From: Williamsia phyllosphaerae
GTDB lineage: Bacteria > Actinomycetota > Actinomycetes > Mycobacteriales > Mycobacteriaceae
NCBI RefSeq assembly: GCF_014635305.1
Contig: NZ_BMCS01000001.1
Coordinates: 1,178,001-1,242,000 of the forward strand
Length of the DNA stretch: 64,000 nt
Reading direction: 5' to 3'
The first letter of the stretch is position 1; the number at the start of each line of letters is the position of its first letter. The position numbers and the translations under genes are program-made. Below, piece by piece: positions 1,532-21,128 of the stretch. The notes under the pieces are model-generated. The model searched no databases. It worked only from the letters and a program-made list of their open reading frames with translations, and had not been told where the DNA came from.

Positions 1532-3853
1532 ATGACCTCACCGATCCCCGGCTCCGAGATCTTCTCGAGCCGTCCCGTCGATCCCGACGCCCTCGCCCGT
1601 TCGCTGCCGCCGAGCCTGCAGATCCACACGGTGACCCAGCAGCAGATCGATGACCTCGACCCGCTCACCTACGAGGTGATCCGTCACCGGCTGTGGTCGG
1701 TGACCGACGAGATGGGTGAAGCACTCAAACGGATGTCGGGCTCGCCGATCGTCACCGACGCCAACGACTTCGACTTCGCCGTGAGCGACGAACTGGGCCA
1801 GGAGGTCCAGGTCGGTCTCTACAACACGATGCTCGTCGGTGCCGTCGACCTCGCCATCTATTGGACGCTGCAGCACCGCGCCACCAATCCCGGCATCGAA
1901 GAGGGCGACATGTTCCTCTGCAACGACCCCTGGGTCGGCGGCGGTCTGCACCAGAGCGACGTCATCGTCTACCAACCGATCTTCCACGAGGGCAAGCTGT
2001 TCAGCTGGACCAGCGCCATCTGCCACGAGCCGGATCTCGGCGGCTCCGGTCTCGGGTCGTTCGACCCGTCCGCCAAGGACGTCTTCTCCGAGTCACTGCC
2101 CACACCACCGATCAAGGTGGTCCGCAACTTCGAGCTCCAGCGCGACGTCGCCGACGTATGGGTCCGCCGGTCCCGTGTCCCGATGCTCGTGGGTCTCGAC
2201 CTGCGCGCCAAGATCGGCGCCAACACGGTGGGGCGCAACCGTATCCACGCGGTCATCGAGCAGTACGGCGCCGACACGGTCAAGGCCGTCATGAAGCGCA
2301 TGATGACCGACGCCGAGGGCCGCCTCCGGGCGAAGCTCACCTCGCTGCCGGACGGCACGTGGAAAGCGACCGGATATCAGGACCAGTCGAGCGTCGGCGA
2401 CCGTGAGGTTCACAAGATCACCGTGGCCATGAGCAAGACCGCCGACCACCTGACATTCGACTTCACCGGTACCGACAAGCAGACCGGCGTCATCAACTGC
2501 ACCTACGCCGGCATGCGCGGTGGCGTCATGCTTGCTCTGCTCCCGATCCTGGCCGGCGACATCCCGTGGTCGGCGGGTGGACTGATGCGGTGCTTCGACC
2601 TGGTGTCCGAGGAAGGCACCATCAACAACGCGACCTTCCCGGCGGCCGTGAGCCGTGGCCCTATCGGCCCCGCGTGGTTGACCGGAACCCTGATCGCGGA
2701 GTGTCTTTCGCAGATGCTCGACCGTTCGGTTGATCTGGGAACGAGTGTGCAGGCGGCGTGCTGCGGCACCTGGGACACCGCGGTCATCGCGGGGCTGGAC
2801 GAGCGGGCCGAACAACCGGTCCCGTTCCTCAACATCATGATGGAGCCCATGGCCGGCGGATACGGGGCGCGTCCCACCGCCGACGGCATGGACACCGGAG
2901 GCCTCTTCTGCATCCCGATGGGCCGCATCCCGGACACCGAGATGACCGAGTTCCTCTACCCCCTGCTCACATTGTGGCGCCGCGAGGAGCCCGACTCCGG
3001 CGGCCCCGGCCGTCAACGTGGCGGTGTGAGCGCGTCATTGGCGGTCACCCCGTATGGCACCAGTCTGCCCATGGGGCTGGTCCTGGCATCCGCGGGCAAG
3101 GCCGTGGCCCAGAACAACGGTCTCGCGGGCGGATACCCCGGCAACACCGGCCTCGAGATCCTGGCCCGCGGCACCGACATCAACGAGCAGTTCGCGGCCG
3201 GTCTTATCCCCGGTGACCTCGATGAACTCGGCGGCGGCCGGGAGTTCGGGGCCTGCTACGCGGAGAGCTACGTGGCACCAGGGGAAGTGCTGTACATGCA
3301 CTGGCAGGGTGGCGGAGGGTACGGCGATCCGCTGCAGCGTGATCCGGCTGCTGTCGCGATCGACCTGCGCGAGGGCAAGGTCACCGTGGACGGTGCGGCC
3401 GCGGTCTACGGCGTCGTCGTCGACCACAATGGGGCCGATGATCGTGCGACCGCGGACCTACGGACGTCCATGCTGACCGAACGTCGTGAGCGGTCCACGC
3501 GGCACTCCGATGCGCCGACCATGGATCTGAGCCTCGGACGACGACTGGACGACAACCTCGTCGAGGTCAGCGTCGGTGACTCGCGTGTCATCGCGTGTGC
3601 GCACTGCGGTCGGTTGCTCGGCGACGACAAGAACGGCGGTGTTCTGGATCTGGCGAGGTTCGAGGGCCCGTCCACGACGGCAGGTCCCCAGGTCACGTCC
3701 GACCCCACCGAGTACGTCGACACCCCGATCGTGTTCCGTCAGCTGTGCTGCCCGGGCTGTTGGACTGCGATCTATTCGGGCATCGTGCCCGCCGATCACC
3801 CAGACCACTCGCTGGAGATCTCGCGACTGTTGCCGGCGGTGGCGACGCGGTGA
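1532..3853 (+). CDS. HyuB-type hydantoinase/oxoprolinase B subunit with C-terminal zinc module
   Basis: 773 residues, longer than a plain HyuB protein. Residues about 40-600 are HyuB-like (YEVIRHRLWSVTDEMGEAL, then CNDPWVGGGLHQSDV, later GGGGYGDP). The last 100 residues hold a CxxC pair (C689, C692) and a CCxxC cluster (C739, C740, C743), which resembles the small zinc-binding gamma/beta subunits of acetone and acetophenone carboxylases. It therefore looks like a fusion of two carboxylase subunits. It lies 10 bp after hyuA, and its stop overlaps the GTG of the next gene (GTGA), so the three should be co-translated. Predicted role: cytoplasmic ATP-dependent carboxylation or ring hydrolysis with HyuA. 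The family call is firm; the fusion interpretation is inference. Confidence 0.85.
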   Translation: MTSPIPGSEIFSSRPVDPDALARSLPPSLQIHTVTQQQIDDLDPLTYEVIRHRLWSVTDEMGEALKRMSGSPIVTDANDFDFAVSDELGQEVQVGLYNTMLVGAVDLAIYWTLQHRATNPGIEEGDMFLCNDPWVGGGLHQSDVIVYQPIFHEGKLFSWTSAICHEPDLGGSGLGSFDPSAKDVFSESLPTPPIKVVRNFELQRDVADVWVRRSRVPMLVGLDLRAKIGANTVGRNRIHAVIEQYGADTVKAVMKRMMTDAEGRLRAKLTSLPDGTWKATGYQDQSSVGDREVHKITVAMSKTADHLTFDFTGTDKQTGVINCTYAGMRGGVMLALLPILAGDIPWSAGGLMRCFDLVSEEGTINNATFPAAVSRGPIGPAWLTGTLIAECLSQMLDRSVDLGTSVQAACCGTWDTAVIAGLDERAEQPVPFLNIMMEPMAGGYGARPTADGMDTGGLFCIPMGRIPDTEMTEFLYPLLTLWRREEPDSGGPGRQRGGVSASLAVTPYGTSLPMGLVLASAGKAVAQNNGLAGGYPGNTGLEILARGTDINEQFAAGLIPGDLDELGGGREFGACYAESYVAPGEVLYMHWQGGGGYGDPLQRDPAAVAIDLREGKVTVDGAAAVYGVVVDHNGADDRATADLRTSMLTERRERSTRHSDAPTMDLSLGRRLDDNLVEVSVGDSRVIACAHCGRLLGDDKNGGVLDLARFEGPSTTAGPQVTSDPTEYVDTPIVFRQLCCPGCWTAIYSGIVPADHPDHSLEISRLLPAVATR

Positions 3854-12756: not shown

Positions 12757-15075
12757 TCAGGCCGCGATGGACGCGCCCTGCTCGACGTCCTCCAGGGCGG
12801 CGAGGATGATGTCGGCGACGTCGGTCATCGGCCGCACGTCGACCGCGTCGAGCACCTCGGCGGGAACCTCGTCGAGGTCGGGCTCGTTGCGCGCCGGGAT
12901 GAACACCGTTGTCAGACCGGCCCGTTGGGCGGCCAGCAACTTCTGCTTCACCCCACCGATCGGGAGCACCCGACCGTTGAGTGTGACCTCACCGGTCATC
13001 CCGACATCCGCCCGGACCCGACGACCGGTCGCCATCGACACCAGCGCCGTCACCATCGTGACGCCCGCGGACGGGCCGTCCTTCGGGATCGCGCCCGCGG
13101 GGACGTGGATGTGGATCTTGCGGTCCAGTGCCGACGGATCGACACCGAGCTCCGCCGCGTGCGAGCGGACGTAGGAGAGCGCGATCTGCGCCGACTCCTT
13201 CATCACGTCACCGAGCTGACCGGTCAGGGTCAGTCCGGCGTCGCCCACGGTGGACGACGCCTCGATGAACAGGACGTCGCCACCCATGCCGGTGACGGCG
13301 AGACCCGTCGCGACGCCGGGCACGGCGGTCCGCTCCTCGGACTCCGGGGTGAACCGGGGGCGTCCGAGGTAGCCCACCAGATCGGGCTCGTCGATCACCA
13401 ACGCGGTGTCGTCCGCGGCCAGCTTCGTGGTGGCCTTGCGCAGCGCCTTGGCCAGGAACCGCTCGAACTGACGCACACCCGGCTCCCGGGTGTAGTCGGC
13501 CGCGATCTTGTGCAGCGCCTCGTCGGTCACGGTGACCTCGTCGGCGGTGAGCGCCGCGCGGTCACGCTGGCGGGGGAGTAGGTAGTCCCGCGCGATGGCG
13601 ACCTTGTCGTCCTCGGTGTAACCGTCGATCGTCACCAGCTCCATGCGATCGATCAACGCCGACGGGATCTGTTCCACCACATTGGCGGTCGCGAGGAACA
13701 CGACGTCGGACAGGTCGAGATCCAGGTCGAGGTAGTGGTCGCGGAACGTGTGGTTCTGCGCCGGGTCGAGCACCTCGAGCAGCGCGGCCGAGGGGTCACC
13801 CCGGTTGTCCGACCCCACCTTGTCGATCTCGTCGAGCAGCACGACCGGGTTCATCGACCCGGCCTCGCCGATCGCCCGCACGATGCGTCCGGGCAGCGCT
13901 CCGACGTACGTCCGACGGTGACCGCGGATCTCGGCTTCGTCGCGCACACCACCGAGGGCGACGCGAACGAATTTGCGGCCCAGGGCTCGTGCGATCGACT
14001 CGCCCAGTGACGTCTTGCCGACACCGGGAGGGCCGGCGAGCAGCATGACAGCACCGGAGCCGCGGCCGCCGACGACCTGCAGGCCGCGCTCGGCCCGACG
14101 TGCACGCACCGCGAGGTACTCCACGATGCGATCCTTCACGTCCTCGAGACCGTGGTGGTCGGCGTCGAGGATCTCGCGCGCAGAGGCGATGTCGGTGGAG
14201 TCGGTCGTGGTGGTGTCCCACGGCAGGTCGAGGACGGTGTCCAACCAGGTTCGCAGGTAACCACTCTCGGGCGACTGATCGCTCGAGCGCTCCAACTTGC
14301 CGACCTCGCGGAGGGCTGCCTCGCGGACGTTGTCGGGAAGCATCGCCGCCTCGATCCGAGCGCGGTAGTCGTCGGAACCGTCCGGCTCGTCCTCGCCGAG
14401 CTCCTTGCGGATGGCGGCGAGCTGCTGACGCAGCAGAAACTCCTTCTGCGTCTTCTCCATGCCGTCGCGGACGTCGCCGGCGATCTTGTCGTTGACCTCC
14501 ACCTCGGCGAGGTGGTCGGTGGTCCACGTGATCAGCGTGCGCAGCCGCTCGGCGACGTTGGGGGTCTCCAGCAGCTCACGCTTCTGGACGTCAGTGAGGT
14601 AGGAGGCGTACCCGGCGGTGTCGGCCAGGGCCGAGGGGTCGGTCAGCTTGTTCACCGAGTCGATGATCTGCCACGCCTCGCGGCGCTGCAGCATCGCCAG
14701 GACGAGCTTCTTGTACTCGGCCGCGAGCTCCTTGGTCTCGTCGCTGACGGTGGGTTCGGTGACGGTCTCGACCTCCACCCAGAGCGCAGCGCCGGGCCCG
14801 GTGGTGCCGGAGCCGATGTGTGCGCGGCCCTCGCCCTTGACCACGGCGGCGGCCTGCCCACCGTTGAGCCGGCCCACCTGCACGATGGATGCGACCACGC
14901 CATAGGACGGGTAGCGGTCCTCGAGACGGGGCGCGACCAGCAGCTTTCCGGATTCGGTGGCCTGGGCCGCGTCCACGGCCGCGCGAGCTGCGTCATCGAG
15001 TTCGATGGGGACCACCATGCCGGGCAGCAGGATGGGATCGGTCAGGAACAGAACCGGTAAGCGCGTATCGCTCAT
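12757..15075 (-). CDS. lon: ATP-dependent protease Lon
   Basis: 772 residues from the ATG at 15075, preceded by GGAGGAAG. The order is an N-terminal LON substrate-binding domain (LPVLFLTDPILLPGMVVPIE), a coiled helical region, an AAA+ module with Walker A GPPGVGKTSLGES, Walker B VVLLDEIDKVG, and a C-terminal peptidase with Ser669 in KDGPSAGVTM and Lys712 in VKQKLLAA forming the catalytic dyad. It degrades misfolded and regulatory proteins in the cytoplasm. Two HAIR-like dyads lie just upstream, so HspR-controlled heat-shock regulation is likely. Monocistronic; full length for the family. Confidence 0.97.
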   Translation of the reverse strand: MSDTRLPVLFLTDPILLPGMVVPIELDDAARAAVDAAQATESGKLLVAPRLEDRYPSYGVVASIVQVGRLNGGQAAAVVKGEGRAHIGSGTTGPGAALWVEVETVTEPTVSDETKELAAEYKKLVLAMLQRREAWQIIDSVNKLTDPSALADTAGYASYLTDVQKRELLETPNVAERLRTLITWTTDHLAEVEVNDKIAGDVRDGMEKTQKEFLLRQQLAAIRKELGEDEPDGSDDYRARIEAAMLPDNVREAALREVGKLERSSDQSPESGYLRTWLDTVLDLPWDTTTTDSTDIASAREILDADHHGLEDVKDRIVEYLAVRARRAERGLQVVGGRGSGAVMLLAGPPGVGKTSLGESIARALGRKFVRVALGGVRDEAEIRGHRRTYVGALPGRIVRAIGEAGSMNPVVLLDEIDKVGSDNRGDPSAALLEVLDPAQNHTFRDHYLDLDLDLSDVVFLATANVVEQIPSALIDRMELVTIDGYTEDDKVAIARDYLLPRQRDRAALTADEVTVTDEALHKIAADYTREPGVRQFERFLAKALRKATTKLAADDTALVIDEPDLVGYLGRPRFTPESEERTAVPGVATGLAVTGMGGDVLFIEASSTVGDAGLTLTGQLGDVMKESAQIALSYVRSHAAELGVDPSALDRKIHIHVPAGAIPKDGPSAGVTMVTALVSMATGRRVRADVGMTGEVTLNGRVLPIGGVKQKLLAAQRAGLTTVFIPARNEPDLDEVPAEVLDAVDVRPMTDVADIILAALEDVEQGASIAA

Positions 15076-15087
15076 TCTTCCTCCAAG

Positions 15088-15108
15088 GTTAAGTCTGATC
15101 GGCTCAAC
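15088..15108. promoter_or_regulatory. HAIR-like HspR operator, lon-proximal
   Basis: GTTAAGT-N7-GCTCAAC, compared with the HspR HAIR consensus CTTGAGT-N7-ACTCAAG: 5 of 7 matches in each half and the correct 7-nt spacer. It ends 12 bp upstream of the lon start codon, just above the Shine-Dalgarno sequence. Confidence 0.55.
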
Positions 15109-15118
15109 CGGCGGAGGA

Positions 15119-15139
15119 GTTGATCTGTTCCCACTCAAG
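15119..15139. promoter_or_regulatory. HAIR-like HspR operator, lon-distal
   Basis: GTTGATC-N7-ACTCAAG: one half is a perfect HAIR half-site, the other keeps TTGA, and the spacer is exactly 7 nt. It lies 31 bp (about three helical turns) from the proximal site. Streptomyces lon is a known HspR target, which supports the call. Confidence 0.65.
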
Positions 15140-15283
15140 TCCGTGTTCGTTGTGAGCGGAATCCTACGTTCTCAACTTGCGTTCAGCTGTTCCAAATGGA
15201 TGGCACTCGCTGTCAGGACCGGGATCTACCGTGGACGTGAACAGCAAGAGTTTGCCCGCGCGGTTTAAACGAAAGGCCTTGTG

Positions 15284-15949
15284 ATGAGTGCTGGTGCTGA
15301 CCGAGCGTGGAACGCGAGGGATGCGATCCTGCTCTGGCTCTATGAGATGAAGATGCAGGGTAACGGCTCGCCAGTCGTCGACGTCGGGGATGTCCAGGCG
15401 GCGGCGAACTGGGCTGCCGAGCCGATCACTGCCGACGAGGTTGCCTCCGCTACGAATTATCTCAAAGACCAGGGCTACATCAAGGGCAGCGGCGCTTTCG
15501 GCGGTGGCGTTCCCCGCCCAGCAATCACCTCCGACGGGGAGAATCTGGTCGCACAGGGACTCTCGGTGCGGCCGGGACCGGCCCAGCAAGCGAACACCAC
15601 CGGTGTCACGAACACCTACAACGTGACCACCAACGCCCCCACCAATGTGGCGATCGGGAGCAACAACTTCACTCAAACCTTCGCCCCGACCGGTGAGCAG
15701 GTCGAGAGTTTGCTGGCCGTCGCTAACGCACTGGAAAGGCTGCTGGCTTCGCAGGAGCCCGTGGACGCCGGTCGAGTCGAGGCCCTTGCCGACGACGTGC
15801 GGGCGGCAGCGGCCGAGCCGGAGCAGGATAAGAACAAATTGATGGCCATCCTCAGTAACGTCATCGGCGCCGTATCCACCGCGGCCGGTAGTGAGATGGG
15901 CCAACAGGTAACCAATCTCGCCGTAGGCGTCATTCAGAGTCTGGGCTAA
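15284..15949 (+). CDS. Winged-helix protein with RHIM-like motif, unknown function
   Basis: 221 residues from the ATG at 15284 (GTG at 15281 is an alternative; AAAGG lies just upstream). Residues about 8-95 look like a winged helix (ARDAILLWLYEMKMQG; ATNYLKDQGYIKGSG; ITSDGENLVAQG). A low-complexity Asn/Thr linker (103-122) runs into NVAIGSNNFTQTF (121-133), which resembles the amyloid-forming RHIM core (V-x-I/V-G-x-x-N). A coiled-coil-like helix (135-180) and a small hydrophobic C-terminal region follow. Family not recognised; the architecture recalls signalling or defence adaptors. It opens the accessory island. Confidence 0.7.
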   Translation: MSAGADRAWNARDAILLWLYEMKMQGNGSPVVDVGDVQAAANWAAEPITADEVASATNYLKDQGYIKGSGAFGGGVPRPAITSDGENLVAQGLSVRPGPAQQANTTGVTNTYNVTTNAPTNVAIGSNNFTQTFAPTGEQVESLLAVANALERLLASQEPVDAGRVEALADDVRAAAAEPEQDKNKLMAILSNVIGAVSTAAGSEMGQQVTNLAVGVIQSLG

Positions 15950-16013
15950 ACACACCACTCGGAAGCGCTGCCGCTGAGGAATCGGCCCGTACCTCAACGT
16001 AGAGCTGAAAGTT

Positions 16014-16034
16014 CTTAGTAACAGTGTTACTCAG
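16014..16034. terminator. Possible weak terminator between convergent genes
   Basis: AGTAACA at 16017-16023 and TGTTACT at 16025-16031 form a perfect 7-bp stem around one base, extended by CT/AG after a mismatch. It lies between the stops of two convergent genes (15949 and 16042). The loop is too tight for the full stem to form, so this is tentative. Confidence 0.35.
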
Positions 16035-16041
16035 TTAAGGA

Positions 16042-16848
16042 TTACCGTGTGAATTTGACGGTGTATCCGGCCAGACCATCGATGCTCAGGCTGTACTCGA
16101 CACCCTGAAAGGTTTCCAAGGCCCAGCCGTCCTTGACGCTGAACGACTTCCCTAACGGCAGTTCGCCCAATCCGGTAGCAGCCTGGAAGTCGACGTCGCC
16201 GTCGCTCACTGACTGAGTGCTGGAGTCTCCCTGTTCTGCGTTGGTTGCCTGGGAATGGAAGTAAAAATCCTGAACTTCGGACGATTTGTTTTTCACGGTG
16301 ACCGGGAAGTAGACAGTCACCGGCTGTAGAGGACTGTCGTACAAGGTGCTCGCGTTCTTACTCGGCACGAACTTGACTGGTGCGCCCACGGTGATCTCCA
16401 GCCTCACCTCGCCCGCCCGCACCGTGTCGCTGTAGATCGCGGTCTGACCGAACTTGCATGGATCTCCGAAAAACCCTTCCGTTTTGCAAGTCATCGGGTC
16501 AGCCGAGGCGGAGGATTCCGCTTCCCGTTTCGGAGCAGGCTGCGGGGAGGACTGCTCAGCGTCCGAGGCCGCCACGGGGTCAGTCTTGGGCGCGGTGCTG
16601 TCGTCCTCCAACAGCGCCCCGACGGTAATGACGCCCGCCAGGATGACGCCGACACCGGCGAGTGCGGCCCACAATCGCCAAGGAGGTTCTGGCTTTGGTC
16701 GCCGGAAGGTCAAGGTGGTTCGCAGTCGGCCATCCTCTCGGGTGACCAGCTCCCAGCCTTGCTGCTGCTTGCTTGCGATCGTTTTCGACTCAGTGCCCCG
16801 GATCGTCTTGATCTCAGCGATCTCGTACCGTGTTCTCTCGCCGGTCAT
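16042..16848 (-). CDS. Membrane-anchored protein with N-terminal DUF4177-like domain
   Basis: 268 residues from the ATG at 16848; AGGGGA precedes it. The cytoplasmic N-terminus (about 1-52) has SKQQQGWELVTREDGRLRTT, similar to DUF4177-type small beta domains. One transmembrane helix follows (about 56-77, WRLWAALAGVGVILAGVITV), then a Ser/Pro/Ala-rich linker and an extracytoplasmic beta-rich domain with a Cys pair (MTCKTEGFFGDPCKFGQ). The outer domain resembles DUF4352-like telokin folds in length and in its PVTVKNKSSEVQDF strand. Function unknown. It converges with the RHIM-like gene. Confidence 0.65.
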   Translation of the reverse strand: MTGERTRYEIAEIKTIRGTESKTIASKQQQGWELVTREDGRLRTTLTFRRPKPEPPWRLWAALAGVGVILAGVITVGALLEDDSTAPKTDPVAASDAEQSSPQPAPKREAESSASADPMTCKTEGFFGDPCKFGQTAIYSDTVRAGEVRLEITVGAPVKFVPSKNASTLYDSPLQPVTVYFPVTVKNKSSEVQDFYFHSQATNAEQGDSSTQSVSDGDVDFQAATGLGELPLGKSFSVKDGWALETFQGVEYSLSIDGLAGYTVKFTR

Positions 16849-17041
16849 GCTTCGTCCCCTCGCCCGAGCGAGGGGACGTTGATATCTGCGTGCCATCCGG
16901 TTGTCGGGTTGGTCATGGATGCAGAGTAAAACACCCAAAGGCGACACGGTGTGCTTCCACATCCCTGCTGCCCGAGCTCGTGATCCCAGTGCGTCTGGGG
17001 TGGGGCGGGATCCAGTCCGCAGTCGCCGGAGGGCCACCCCG

Positions 17042-17782
17042 ATGCGAACCACACCAGATGCACGAAATCACGTAAGCGAATCTTTGAAGCGTGGCGAACA
17101 AAGGTCTTGCGACTACTGCGGTGCGCCGCTCCTACTCATTGCCGTCAGTCGCTGCAGGATTTGCCTGCACGGAGCCCAAGGACTCAGGGGTGAGATCCGG
17201 TACAGATCGAGCTCGGTCGCAACGCGCCTCAACGAAGTGCAGGCCGGACTCGGCGACTGGTTGCTCGCCAAGGTCGATGCAACTAAGGCTGATCTTGAAC
17301 AACGAAGCCACGAGCTGCAACTGGGAAAGTTTAAGCCGGTCGCGCTGCCAACCCTTTGCTCTCATTAGAGAACCGGACTACATCACACCCTCATGGCGCA
17401 CGTGGCGCCCGCCAGATGGCTTAGATCAGCCAGCCTCCGCGCCCCCTCAATTGTCATTCGGATTGGGAGGTCGCCTTCCGCAGACCTGGCAGGACGCTGA
17501 AAATTTCGCCGAGCATTAGATGCGCAATGATGGTTACCTCGATGCAAAGAAGCCCCGCCTGGCGCGGATGGCGTAGTCGATGTCCGCGCCAAGCGAGCGC
17601 TGGCCCAAGTCAAGCACCGTGCGGTGAAGGTGCCGATCCGAGACGTCCAGCGTTTGAGTGGAATTGCTCGGCCAGAGAACAAAGGTGAGATCTTCTTAGC
17701 ACTCAACGCGTACACCAAATATGCCAAGGGATCGGGTGACGCCCACGGAGTGCGCTGCCTGACCTACCGGGGCCGGATCTGA
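17042..17782 (+). pseudogene. Degraded zinc-finger/Mrr-type restriction endonuclease
   Basis: Three overlapping frames rebuild one protein. Frame 1 (from the ATG at 17042) gives a C4 finger, SCDYCGAPLL with SRCRIC, then a helical region ending at a stop at 17366-17368. Frame 2 takes over and gives TWQDAENFAEH before a TAG at 17517-17519, continuing in frame as MRNDGYLDAKK. Around 17550 the frame shifts by one base (C-run CCCC) into PPGADGVVDVRAKRALAQVK, then VQRLSGIA, ending with TGA at 17780-17782. The pattern DAE...M...GY.DA...GADG..DV...AQVK...VQ.L is the Mrr-type nuclease core with its D...QxK catalytic residues. At least two frameshifts and one nonsense codon mean it is inactive unless recoded. 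The N-terminal half joining this nuclease is inference. Confidence 0.6.
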
Positions 17783-17989
17783 GCTACCCCCATCACTTAT
17801 GCGGGCCGCCGATTCGCCATGTCAAGGTCTGGAAGAGGCAACTTCGTCGCATAACTCGGCCCACTGCGGCCCGGCGGTCGGCGCTTGACATCGGCTTTTC
17901 TGTCCCATGCCGCGACCCTCTGCGTCTGATTACGTCGAGAGTGAAGTCGCGCTTGCAGCCAGACTCGCGGTAATAAATTTGAGGTGTGA
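17783..17989. other. Non-coding stretch in island
   Basis: I see no convincing gene on either strand; short frames lack start signals and family similarity. It separates the nuclease remnant from the oppositely oriented 66-codon gene. Confidence 0.5.
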
Positions 17990-18190
17990 TCAGGGCCACC
18001 GCACCATTCGTTGCTCGCGGATCGACCATACGGCGCGCTGTCCGCTAGTCGTCATGATCACCTCGTCGTCGTCGAGAAGCTCAACGGGAGCCGCATCTAC
18101 GTTCGTGAGCCAGGTCATCGAGCCGCTGACCTTGTCCCGAAACCCTGCCTGATTATTTTCGTTACCGGTGAATTCGTAGTTCGACGCCAT
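17990..18190 (-). CDS. Small orphan protein (66 residues)
   Basis: The ATG at 18190 is preceded by AAGGAG at a 5-nt gap, one of the best ribosome sites in the island. The product starts MASNYEFTGNENNQAGFRDK and has a balanced, globular-looking composition with an acidic LLDDDEV stretch and a C-terminal REQRMVRWP. There is no signal peptide, membrane segment or Cys. Not recognised. The strong SD and protein-like composition argue that it is real, while its surroundings are decayed. Confidence 0.55.
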   Translation of the reverse strand: MASNYEFTGNENNQAGFRDKVSGSMTWLTNVDAAPVELLDDDEVIMTTSGQRAVWSIREQRMVRWP

Positions 18191-18600
18191 CGGGCTCCTT
18201 GGTTGTTCGTTGCCGCCATGCGGATCAGACCTCCAAGCTTTATCAGAACCTCGAGCAGGACGGGCGAGGATTTCCGGCCTAGCGCGAGTGGCATGCGCCG
18301 GGCTGTGCAGCGGACGGGCCGGCTCGTCAACGGGGTTCGGCCCGTTCCACGCCTATTAATCGGTGGGCGGGTCGCGCCGCCACCACCGAGGGGGACCACT
18401 ACGCGGCGACCCGCGGCGCGATCGGGACCCTCAACGGCGCAGATTGCACGCGCTACGCGCGATGCGGAGCGTGCCCTGGGCTCGGTGTTCACCACGTCCT
18501 GAAGTCGGCCGGCTCACTACCACTCGCGCCGAACCGCACCTCGCGGGCCGATGCGTTGTAGTCCGCTAGCTTTCGGTGAAAAATCGAAATTAGACAACTT
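18191..18600. other. Non-coding or decayed stretch
   Basis: About 410 bp with no gene I can support. All long frames are Arg/Pro/Gly-rich GC artefacts. An 8-bp inverted repeat (ACGGGCCG / CGGCCCGT) flanks a loop near 18315-18350. Base composition falls in GC towards the right end. Confidence 0.4.
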
Positions 18601-18916
18601 CAAGACAAGGTTCGACTCGTTCCCACTCAGCGCGAGCTCAATGCGGCTAAGCGCCTCATGGCGAAAAATCTCGGAGCACGACTGCGTTCTTTCTTAGCGT
18701 CTCGCCGTCACCACGCTTGACGCCCCCGAATTCACCGTGGAGAAATCCTGGGCAGATTTTGCGACGCTCAGCATCGAATCCAGATTGTGCAACATCATGG
18801 CTGCGATCGAAATGCGGGCCGTCACCCACGCAGAGATGGCGGCTCGTCGAAAACTGGAAGAAACAGAACGCGAACGGGTCCGCAAAAATGAGGACGCGCA
18901 GGGGCGCCACGTGTAG
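18601..18916 (+). pseudogene. Frameshifted remnant of an unidentified helical protein
   Basis: Two abutting frames look protein-like. The first (18601-18720) reads QRELNAAKRLMAKNLGARL up to a TGA; the second, one frame off (about 18690-18916), reads LDAPEFTVEKSWADFATLSI, then a charged helix MAARRKLEETERERVRKNED before TAG. Joined by one frameshift near 18700 they would give about 100 residues of amphipathic helix. No start codon with an SD is visible and no family is recognised. It could equally be a chance frame in this lower-GC stretch. Confidence 0.3.
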
Positions 18917-19066
18917 GTCGAGGACGCTTTCGGGCACGTCTTTTAGACGACGTAGCGTCGTTCAGAAGCAAGCCTCTCTTCAGGCGCTTCACTCTCGGTT
19001 CAATCTCTTGCTGCGCGTTGAATATTGTGATGGCGGCGTGCTGGCTATAGAGATTTGCTTCGTTCA

Positions 19067-19711
19067 TCAGATCTGCACGTAGCTATACGCCATGAGTTGA
19101 GGGCGGATTCTATTGTCGATGAATGCAATCGCGCGGGGTGAGGAGTTGGGGGGTAGTTGAAATAGGTAATACATCTTCACGGAGAAGCCCGGTTGAAGAT
19201 CGCCGATCAGCTCTTCCGACATACGGTCGTAGTTTTGCCTGATCTGATACACGTTCCGAATAGTGTCGAAAGCCCGATTCTGGTTATCCACCAGCTTAGA
19301 TTTAACCCAACCTTCGAGGTAAACATTGTCACCCTGGCTGCCAGCGTTCTCGACTACCGCCTCCACCAGCACAAACTTGCCCCCCGCGGGCGGTGCGATA
19401 GTGGCGAAGTAGTCGTCGCCTCCGTTCTCCTCATACTTTTCAACCGTGTTTGGGTAGGTCACATTTTGGACCGTGACTCTAGCGGTGCCGGTGGAAACCG
19501 GCTGTCCGATCAAGGACATAGGTGTGGCCGTTTTGGTGGTAGTTACAGTAATTGGCCCCTCGTACGGCGCGGCGTTTGTGCTGGGTGTTGTATAACGCGC
19601 ACTGTTCGAGTCCGAGGTCATTGACGCCGTGATCGCGATAGTGGTACCTCCGACGATGACAACGAGCGCCACTAGTGCGAGGGCGAGTATCCAGTTAGCC
19701 TTGTTTTTAAT
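19067..19711 (-). CDS. Membrane-anchored DUF4352-like (telokin-like) extracytoplasmic protein, possible ATT start
   Basis: From an ATT at 19709-19711 the product has 214 residues: IKNKANWILALALVALVVIV, a membrane anchor or signal, then a Thr-rich linker and a beta-sandwich domain (TARVTVQNVTYPNT, FVLVEAVVENAG, VKSKLVDNQNRAFD, LQPGFSVKMYYLFQLPPN) matching DUF4352. AAGGAG lies 7 nt before the ATT. The first standard start in frame is a GTG at 19672, which lacks an SD and would cut the anchor; an in-frame stop lies just upstream of the ATT. An 8-codon out-of-frame leader ATG overlaps the site. GC is clearly lower than flanking genes. Function unknown. Confidence 0.65.
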   Translation of the reverse strand: MKNKANWILALALVALVVIVGGTTIAITASMTSDSNSARYTTPSTNAAPYEGPITVTTTKTATPMSLIGQPVSTGTARVTVQNVTYPNTVEKYEENGGDDYFATIAPPAGGKFVLVEAVVENAGSQGDNVYLEGWVKSKLVDNQNRAFDTIRNVYQIRQNYDRMSEELIGDLQPGFSVKMYYLFQLPPNSSPRAIAFIDNRIRPQLMAYSYVQI

Positions 19712-19739
19712 CGCTTTGCTCCTTCGAATTCATTGATAA

Positions 19740-20750
19740 ACCTTTTGACTTGCAAGCGGAGGTGGTTTGCTCATCCACTGGGTGCGCTTAGTGGCGCAAG
19801 TTCTGGATAGAGTGAGGCGGCTGTCGCTTACGTTGTGACGTGATCGTGGATCGCGGCCAATAGCCGAGGCTGAAGCTGCCTGAGCCCTGTTCGGACCTGC
19901 ACAAAATGAACTTCCGGTGCCCATTCTGCAGGGAGGCGCGCGGGTATACCTGTCGCGACGAAGCGATGGAATATCTTCCACTGCTCATTGCGAATGTTGC
20001 GACGCTGCTACCTAGAGATTGGCCAGTTCGCAGCTAGTGGGGACGGATGTCTGCACGGTAGTGGGTACCGAGCGACGGCCAGTGGTGGCTCCCGGGTGGG
20101 CCTTGTCGACGTCAAATGGCGGATGACGGGGTGCGTATGGTCGACGTAGCGGACGCGGTATTGGTGCCAGTGTCTCTGGTTCGACGCGACCAACAACGAT
20201 GAACGTCGGCTTACCGCGTTTCGTCGGTGGCTGCCGCCGCAGCCCGGGGGGTGATAGCCGGGGCGGTCGCAGGTGTAACCGGACAAATCCGGCGACGGTG
20301 CATACATGAGTGCGTGGCTTTCTTGAGCGACAAGACGGGACGCGACGCGTGCCGAAGACAGTTATATGCGATGCCGCCAACAGCGTTACAGCCGAGTGGC
20401 CGGTTTTTCTGGTTCGGATATGTCCATGTCGTCTGATCGGATGAAAGTTTCATCGCGACTCGTCAGATCAGTCCGTGACGACGACACTGTGGACGGCCGA
20501 GCTCAAGGGGCCGGGGTTCTGTCGCTGCACGACCCCCAGGCAGGGGGCGGCTGACCAGCAAGCATCGGCGTCGACGAGGAGCGGCCGATTGCCGACCTTC
20601 GAGTCGGGGAACTCCGCGGCTAGTGGGTCGCTGCGGAGTCAGAGCCGAAGCCCGCGGTCGTAGCCATCCCCCGAAAATGGGTCACAGACCTTCTAGGTCG
20701 CGGACCAGATGGCAAGAGCCCAGGCCATCTGAGCGAGAGCCGAACTAGTG
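19740..20750. other. Gene-poor stretch of island
   Basis: About 1 kb with no gene I can support. Frames on both strands are short, Arg/Pro/Ser-rich and lack ribosome sites; one stretch from 19907 encodes MNFRCPFCREARGYTCRDEA, too short to assign. Probably decayed foreign DNA; no inverted-repeat ends of an insertion sequence were recognised. Confidence 0.45.
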
Positions 20751-20754
20751 CCCT

Positions 20755-20990
20755 GCCGGTGGCGCAGGCGGTCAGTCCGCGATCGGCGGCTTCGGTCGCA
20801 GCGGGCGGCTCGGGTGGTACGGGCGGCTCAGGCGGAATCGGTGGCGCGGCGGCCACGGGCGGTCGCGGCGGGCTCCTTGGTGCCTCGGGCGGTACGGGTA
20901 CGGCCGGCGCCAACGGTGCATCCGGCGGTTCGGGTGCCACCGGAGCGAACGGTGCGTCCAATGGCGCCGGTGCCACCGGGCGCGGTCGGC
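20755..20990 (+). repeat. Gly-rich PGRS-like coding repeat remnant
   Basis: Imperfect GGN-GGN repeats encode GGSGGTGGSGGIGG, later GANGASGGSGATGANGAS, the composition of mycobacterial PGRS tracts or collagen-like Gly repeats. A second Gly frame, GGAGGQSAIGGFG, precedes it one register off, as if a frameshift had split one tract. The frame then runs into Arg-rich sequence to 21157. There is no PE domain, start or SD. Likely the remnant of a Gly-rich surface protein gene. Confidence 0.5.
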
Positions 20991-21128
20991 GTTGCAGGCG
21001 CACGAGGCGCGAACGGAACGCCCAGCCAACCCGGCTGACGCGGCGGACCGGAATCGTCCGTGTGGCAGCCCGGCGTGGTCACCAGGACCACGGTGGCCCG
21101 CCAGTCGGACCATCTCAGTGGGCCGGGG

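Follow-up and report, generated by a model that had tools for sequence, protein, structure and literature searches.

The window, the whole stretch of 64,000 nucleotides of Williamsia phyllosphaerae DNA analysed here, contains an inserted island that encodes a predicted winged-helix protein with a conserved C-terminal module. The features on which the argument draws are the following, with residues numbered from ATG 15284.

15164..21048 (no strand): inserted island of ~5.9 kb, separating lon from the next conserved block
15281..15949 (+): winged-helix protein gene, stop included; start GTG 15281 or ATG 15284, giving 222 or 221 aa
15290..15553 (+): winged-helix-like domain, residues 3-90, predicted by AlphaFold2 (pLDDT 68-89 by blocks of ten)
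15593..15694 (+): conserved linker, residues 104-137, mostly without confident monomer structure
15644..15682 (+): peptide NVAIGSNNFTQTF of the original prediction, residues 121-133
15692..15946 (+): four-helix bundle, residues 137-221, predicted by AlphaFold2 (pLDDT about 85-94 by blocks, tail modelled alone)
16045..16848 (-): convergent neighbour gene, its product with one hydrophobic stretch by reading
17564..17779 (+): remnant of an Mrr-type restriction endonuclease, PF04471 (Mrr_cat) E 0.0047, below the curated cut-off

The island has a GC content of 60.5%, against 68.6% in lon and 69.2% in the right flank. We compared the insertion site in three of seven sister genomes: in G007 the flanks lie only 24 bases apart and the insertion is absent, and G004 and G003 also lack it, different sequence of about 260 and 130 bases filling the site. 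The winged-helix gene is found in none of the seven. No clear direct repeats mark the island ends, and a check for an attachment site found no tRNA. The next island gene had been described as a broken nuclease; a nuclease remnant with weak likeness to Mrr_cat does lie in the island, but the gene that actually follows is the convergent one at 16045-16848. Its product shares 66-69% identity with proteins of four Rhodococcus plasmids, and its weaker matches are annotated DUF4839. At the two of these plasmid loci that we read, no winged-helix gene is evident beside the relative, and the product has no similarity to that of the Ig-like gene convergent with the winged-helix relative on plasmid pVT2. 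Also inside the island, a DUF4352 protein (19070-19672, minus strand) matches the phage family phrog_806 (E 1.3e-13).

The winged-helix gene is single-copy in its own 4.8-Mb genome, and its product has no match in Pfam, PHROG, NCBIfam or PADLOC at E<=0.1. The tail searched alone gives two Pfam matches (E 0.018 and 0.032), both below cut-off; DUF4404 and WXG100-like matches in Pfam were set aside as below cut-off. Neither the protein nor the module is matched above cut-off by any family in the libraries that we searched. AlphaFold2 and fold comparisons predict a winged-helix-like N-terminus, an Asn/Thr-rich linker and a helical C-terminus. In the full-protein model, built from an input of eight sequences, pLDDT falls below 50 at residues 106-131 and four helices occupy residues 137-220; in the tail modelled alone the leading 25 residues are below 50 and a confident four-helix bundle follows. 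The linker proposed in the original prediction is thus upheld, the single coiled coil thought to follow it gives way to a four-helix bundle, and no ordinary beta domain is predicted for the segment. Four-helix bundles are common folds, and we treated the copper-storage, Dps and designed four-helix proteins in the VIA-align and Foldseek lists as common-fold matches; comparisons of the bundle and of the protein against the PDB gave no significant match. For residues 3-90 the closest PDB folds are MarR/PadR-type regulators and SSV1 F-93, at E 0.12 and worse and Z 8-9, a level that the comparison tool calls common, so that the resemblance is one of fold only. The likeness to MarR/PadR-type regulators is therefore confined to the predicted fold of these residues; there is no significant sequence match, and the window protein has an extra module.

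Plasmid searches for relatives of this protein returned 32 records at E<=0.01, 5 of which cover at least 80% of the query. Among genomes, a single-sequence search found relatives in 9 of 151, and a profile search in 25 of 397 from the order and 5 of 396 from the phylum, the own genome being included each time. Eight named loci came from a search of the contig collection with the A3 profile; a first scan of that collection had yielded 77 pattern stretches and no relative, viral contigs gave 6 pattern stretches and no relative, and a phage collection held no relative at E<=0.01. The Nocardia amamiensis relative lies in a prophage that also carries genes for integrase, endolysin and tail proteins, primase and capsid genes adjoin the Streptomyces NP160 copy, and invertase and integrase genes are found near the Sinomonas copy; for others, Nocardia pneumoniae for example, no mobile context emerged. 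Many relatives, then, sit on plasmids or beside phage genes.

In four mycobacterial loci (M. avium pVT2, M. pallens, M. iranicum and M. komossense; L004, L019, L039 and L042) the relative shares one open frame with a serine resolvase (PF00239), a domain that the window protein lacks. The resolvase was checked against Pfam in two of the four, and an internal start codon stands at the joint, so that separate products are possible. The incomplete gene table of pVT2 lists no gene at the site of the relative, and a literature search found nothing joining pVT2, Mycobacterium avium and resolvase. On Rhodococcus megaplasmids (L018 and L020), proteins of 119 and 126 aa that consist of the winged helix alone are annotated 'serine recombinase', a label that was probably carried over from the fusions to stand-alone relatives. 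Architecture varies in other directions too: by our reading of the alignments, longer distant relatives seem to carry a second winged helix, and some profile matches comprise just the linker and bundle behind other N-termini.

The neighbours differ among relatives, and no consistent partner emerges. In Hoyosella a Pycsar cyclase and effector come after the gene; MUG113-type proteins are encoded nearby in G304 and G273, the latter also with a weakly matching Mrr_cat protein. At another locus (G693, L083 4021-6151) the gene after a winged-helix relative encodes a CyanoTRADDas_TM protein, and the upstream genes read as integrase-like and replication-like. One relative, L130, has an EAD2-like match (E 0.0059) that is below cut-off and serves as a lead only.

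What unites the family lies behind the winged helix. Conservation extends jointly over linker and bundle in an alignment of 36 relatives, all with a full linker, and across the segment of interest the consensus is N-[VIL]-A-x-x-S-x-x-x-x-Q-[TNS], with N121 kept in 22/36, A123 in 29/36, S126 in 25/36 and Q131 in 32/36. These rows are not independent: the mycobacterial ones are mutually close, as are L023/L024, L049/L050 and L057-L059. We omitted repeats of one locus (L001/L027/L046; L002/L005; L012/L058; L007/L013/L045/L071, with L052 kept), frameshifted or broken plasmid copies (L014, L016, L025, L026), matches to the winged helix only (L006, L008, L018, L020, L054, L062), weak or partial matches (L010, L065-L070, L072, L075, L076), and L011/L063, in which a different sequence follows the linker. 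Judged by this alignment, the segment is real and conserved, by its own rules rather than those of a RHIM.

The original prediction had taken the peptide for a RHIM-like amyloid motif. Its location is correct, as 15644-15682 (+) does translate to NVAIGSNNFTQTF, and a general likeness exists: with the RHIMs of RIPK1 and RIPK3, the fungal PP motif and BASS3 the window protein shares a short, beta-prone, N/G-rich segment with alternating hydrophobic residues, including [VI]-x-[VI]-G. The RHIM core is given, in the part of PMC7885112 available to us, as G-(I,V)-Q-(I,V)-G; where it would be expected, the window protein reads N-V-A-I-G. Across the 36 relatives the core Q is present at the A123 position in 0/36, the second G (G125) in 15/36 and the later N (N128) in 8/36. 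Scored position by position over 5 features in the 36-row alignment, the window protein and one distant relative reach 4/5, and the other 34 at most 3. The segment is thus conserved in place among homologues, but the RHIM residues are not kept; a second G in fewer than half of the relatives and no core Q set it apart from RHIM, PP and BASS3, as do its own conserved A, S and downstream Q. The distant relative with the equal score (L053, from G218) reads IVVGDNNYVHN at the motif position, near the V-Q-V-G-D-N-N-Y of RIPK3 but without the Q. A search of the linker profile against the PDB returned no RHIM chain at E<=10, a weak test for a motif so short; its top match was ribosomal S11 (E 0.029).

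Matches of this kind also arise readily. Our chance control covered 183 ORFs by our own gene calling (56,988 aa, from the window and 13 loci) with 50 rounds of shuffling. The pattern [VIL]x[VIL]GxxN occurred 9 times against a shuffled mean of 4.94, [VI]A[VI]GxxN once, in the peptide itself, against 0.24, and [VIL]Q[VIL]GxxN 3 times against 0.12. The last three are VQVGLYN in the gene at 1532-3850 (+), and VQVGRLN in the window's Lon (12757-15138, minus strand) and in the Lon region of G004; both strings are nearer the RHIM core, Q included, than the peptide is. Since VQVGxxN exceeds its shuffled expectation, the shuffles understate how frequent such strings are in real proteins, and since RHIM-like heptapeptides, even better ones, occur in ordinary proteins, the match alone is uninformative. 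On these core-residue counts and the in-window VQVGxxN control we reject RHIM identity. It is conservation among relatives, as read from the alignment, that lifts the segment above chance. A short RHIM look-alike can mislead motif scans, and the useful signal is the family consensus.

In a BASS signalling pair the same motif occurs in an adjacent NLR, at its N-terminus, and in an effector, at its C-terminus. No NLR or Bell partner was seen for the window protein, and the protein itself has no match to an NLR domain. A search for a nearby or distant partner sharing the motif had been suggested as a check, and the module profile finds no such partner in the own genome: there is no second copy, though a bare 13-residue motif could escape such a search, and besides the protein itself it returns just two weak matches, at E 0.12 and, in Lon, E 0.89. 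A literature search found nothing joining bacterial amyloid signaling, winged helix and RHIM.

A different link to defence comes from the module as a whole. Beside a winged-helix relative in one genome of the order, G421, is a gene whose product ends in the same module (linker HMM E 0.0077, module E 3.3e-17) and which encodes an AbiTii protein (PF18864, E 5.6e-22). The two genes are convergent and about 110 bp apart, and both carry the module. For wider comparison we used a linker-plus-bundle profile, A5, of 119 positions and 36 proteins drawn from winged-helix queries, with the window protein as row 1. A Pfam-led AbiTii search of 298 order genomes, made without A5, had positives in 6. In three of these the AbiTii protein is picked out by A5 (G293 at 49.6 bits, G033 at 24.0 and G300 at 17.7), and in G167, G273 and G212 it is not. 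We then scored seven AbiTii proteins, the domain being confirmed by Pfam in all of them; they are those of G293, G033, G300 and G167 from the Pfam-led set, that of G421, and those of G414 and G451, which were found through A5 itself. Their scores are 61.6, 49.6, 33.0, 29.9, 24.0 and 17.7 bits, and -0.1 for the seventh (G167); the best of 700 shuffled AbiTii C-termini reached 9.2 bits, the shuffles not preserving helix periodicity.

Lon supplies a background for these scores. A5 matches 48 of the 397 order genomes, and among its matches are frames of 775-885 aa, taken as Lon coiled coils, at 21.5-24.9 bits; it also weakly matches the lon loci L031-L034 and the own Lon. Because of this background the proteins of G033 and G300 are borderline, and those of G421, G293, G414 and G451 exceed it. 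The Lon-type matches extend over 43-71 positions of the bundle only. Five of the AbiTii matches span both linker and bundle (positions 4-116 in G421, 4-118 in G293, 8-111 in G414, 5-111 in G451 and 6-114 in G033, of 119), and the linker of the G414 protein reads SVAVASSNFSQTI against NVAIGSNNFTQTF in the window. By profile score, then, the module ends some AbiTii proteins: of the seven, four are clear, two borderline and one without it. The window protein differs in carrying a winged helix where the AbiTii domain stands, that domain being absent from it (E<=1) and from its genome. Close pairs of module genes on one contig are found in only 2 of the 48 A5-positive order genomes, G421 and G304, the latter with its two genes about 2.7 kb apart. 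Both a distant relative (E 5.7e-4) and an AbiTii protein (E 1.5e-4) show, in the helical module, a weak likeness to DUF5955 (PF19380), with matches below the curated cut-off; three DUF5955 proteins that we read have neither linker nor winged helix, and we found no paper naming DUF5955.

We favor, at a probability near 0.55, the reading that the gene encodes a mobile-element winged-helix protein whose C-terminal assembly module is shared with AbiTii proteins, and that the peptide is part of this module and not a RHIM. We regard as established the island, the plasmid or phage context of many relatives, the conserved linker and bundle, and the sharing of the module with some AbiTii proteins, including one adjacent pair. 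The proposed module would consist of a conserved linker of ~30 residues (N-V-A-x-x-S-x-x-x-x-Q-T, including the peptide) followed by the four-helix bundle, and would be the same one seen behind AbiTii abortive-infection domains and behind other N-termini. It may make the protein multimerise, or join it to other module-bearing proteins; the winged helix would supply DNA binding or sensing, and DNA or another ligand bound there might bring about the assembled state. In its carrier element such a protein could serve defence, control of the element or upkeep of a plasmid. Two observations favor defence, the module shared with AbiTii and the assorted conflict-type neighbours. The tie to defence-type proteins hinted at in the original prediction has support through the module around the segment; the RHIM amyloid motif does not. 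How AbiTii and other Abi proteins act is largely enigmatic according to the portion of a 2013 survey available to us (PMC3710099). The accessible part of one study reports that lactococcal AbiTii does not inhibit growth of E. coli (PMC3985639), which weighs against a simply toxic effector. By linking AbiTii with winged-helix proteins of mobile elements, in one case as adjacent genes, the module suggests a testable way in which AbiTii may be triggered.

The alternative that holds up best, though we think it improbable, is an accessory protein that would bind DNA and help to maintain a plasmid or element (by resolution, partition or copy control); in it the bundle would oligomerise and the linker be a mere spacer. 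The open frames shared with serine resolvases speak for plasmid upkeep, and fit upkeep as well as defence; the small-plasmid setting near parA and relaxase genes and the winged-helix-only versions on Rhodococcus megaplasmids point the same way. A spacer, however, has no need of conserved positions, the module is common to AbiTii proteins and other N-termini, and the window gene stands free of a resolvase, as do the relatives in Hoyosella and Nocardia.

A more speculative extension, to which we give lower odds still, is that linker and bundle form a homotypic signalling module: a winged-helix sensor of invading DNA or its signals would, by way of the linker, nucleate a beta-stacked assembly to which AbiTii or other effectors with the same module are recruited. 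If true, actinobacterial mobile-element immunity would have a counterpart to the logic of RHIM adaptors, built on a motif of its own that is not a RHIM. The varying neighbours and the single module copy in the own genome argue against a fixed signalling pair. Somewhat more doubtful again is an element-encoded MarR/PadR-like transcriptional repressor with an unusual dimerisation tail, controlling for example its own island or prophage. The fold of the N-terminus and the N. amamiensis copy near prophage integrase genes would suit such a role; the apparent second winged helix of longer distant relatives and the presence of the module in non-regulator proteins tell against it. Last comes the idea that the peptide is a genuine amyloid signalling motif of RHIM type (BASS3-like) in an adaptor for defence or cell death, which we consider very unlikely: the positional likeness of the peptide, the L053 string, a segment without confident monomer fold, the suggestion in the accessible part of PMC7889193 that a centrally placed RHIM can function, and a motif shared between adjacent genes in two distant relatives are outweighed by the missing core residues, the VQVGxxN strings in Lon and another window gene, and the failure to find an own-genome partner by module profile or an NLR domain in the protein.

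Those two distant relatives, short proteins of G345 and G381, share just the bundle with the window family (hhalign probability 90%, E 1.4e-6). At both loci (L080 1741-3830 and L079 3699-6458) the upstream protein carries a C-terminal motif, NQGVIQTGGLSVVGNQAVG, that is similar to one at the N-terminus of the bundle protein encoded next. A like arrangement is described for bacterial amyloid signalling pairs in the accessible part of PMC7889193, and by their sequences these adjacent genes are a candidate amyloid-type signalling pair; the relation is distant, and the window motif cannot be called amyloid on its strength. The Gly/Gln motif pair was recognised by eye in G345, and a comparison of the upstream protein of G345 with a small set of G381 frames gave a match at E 4.2e-5.
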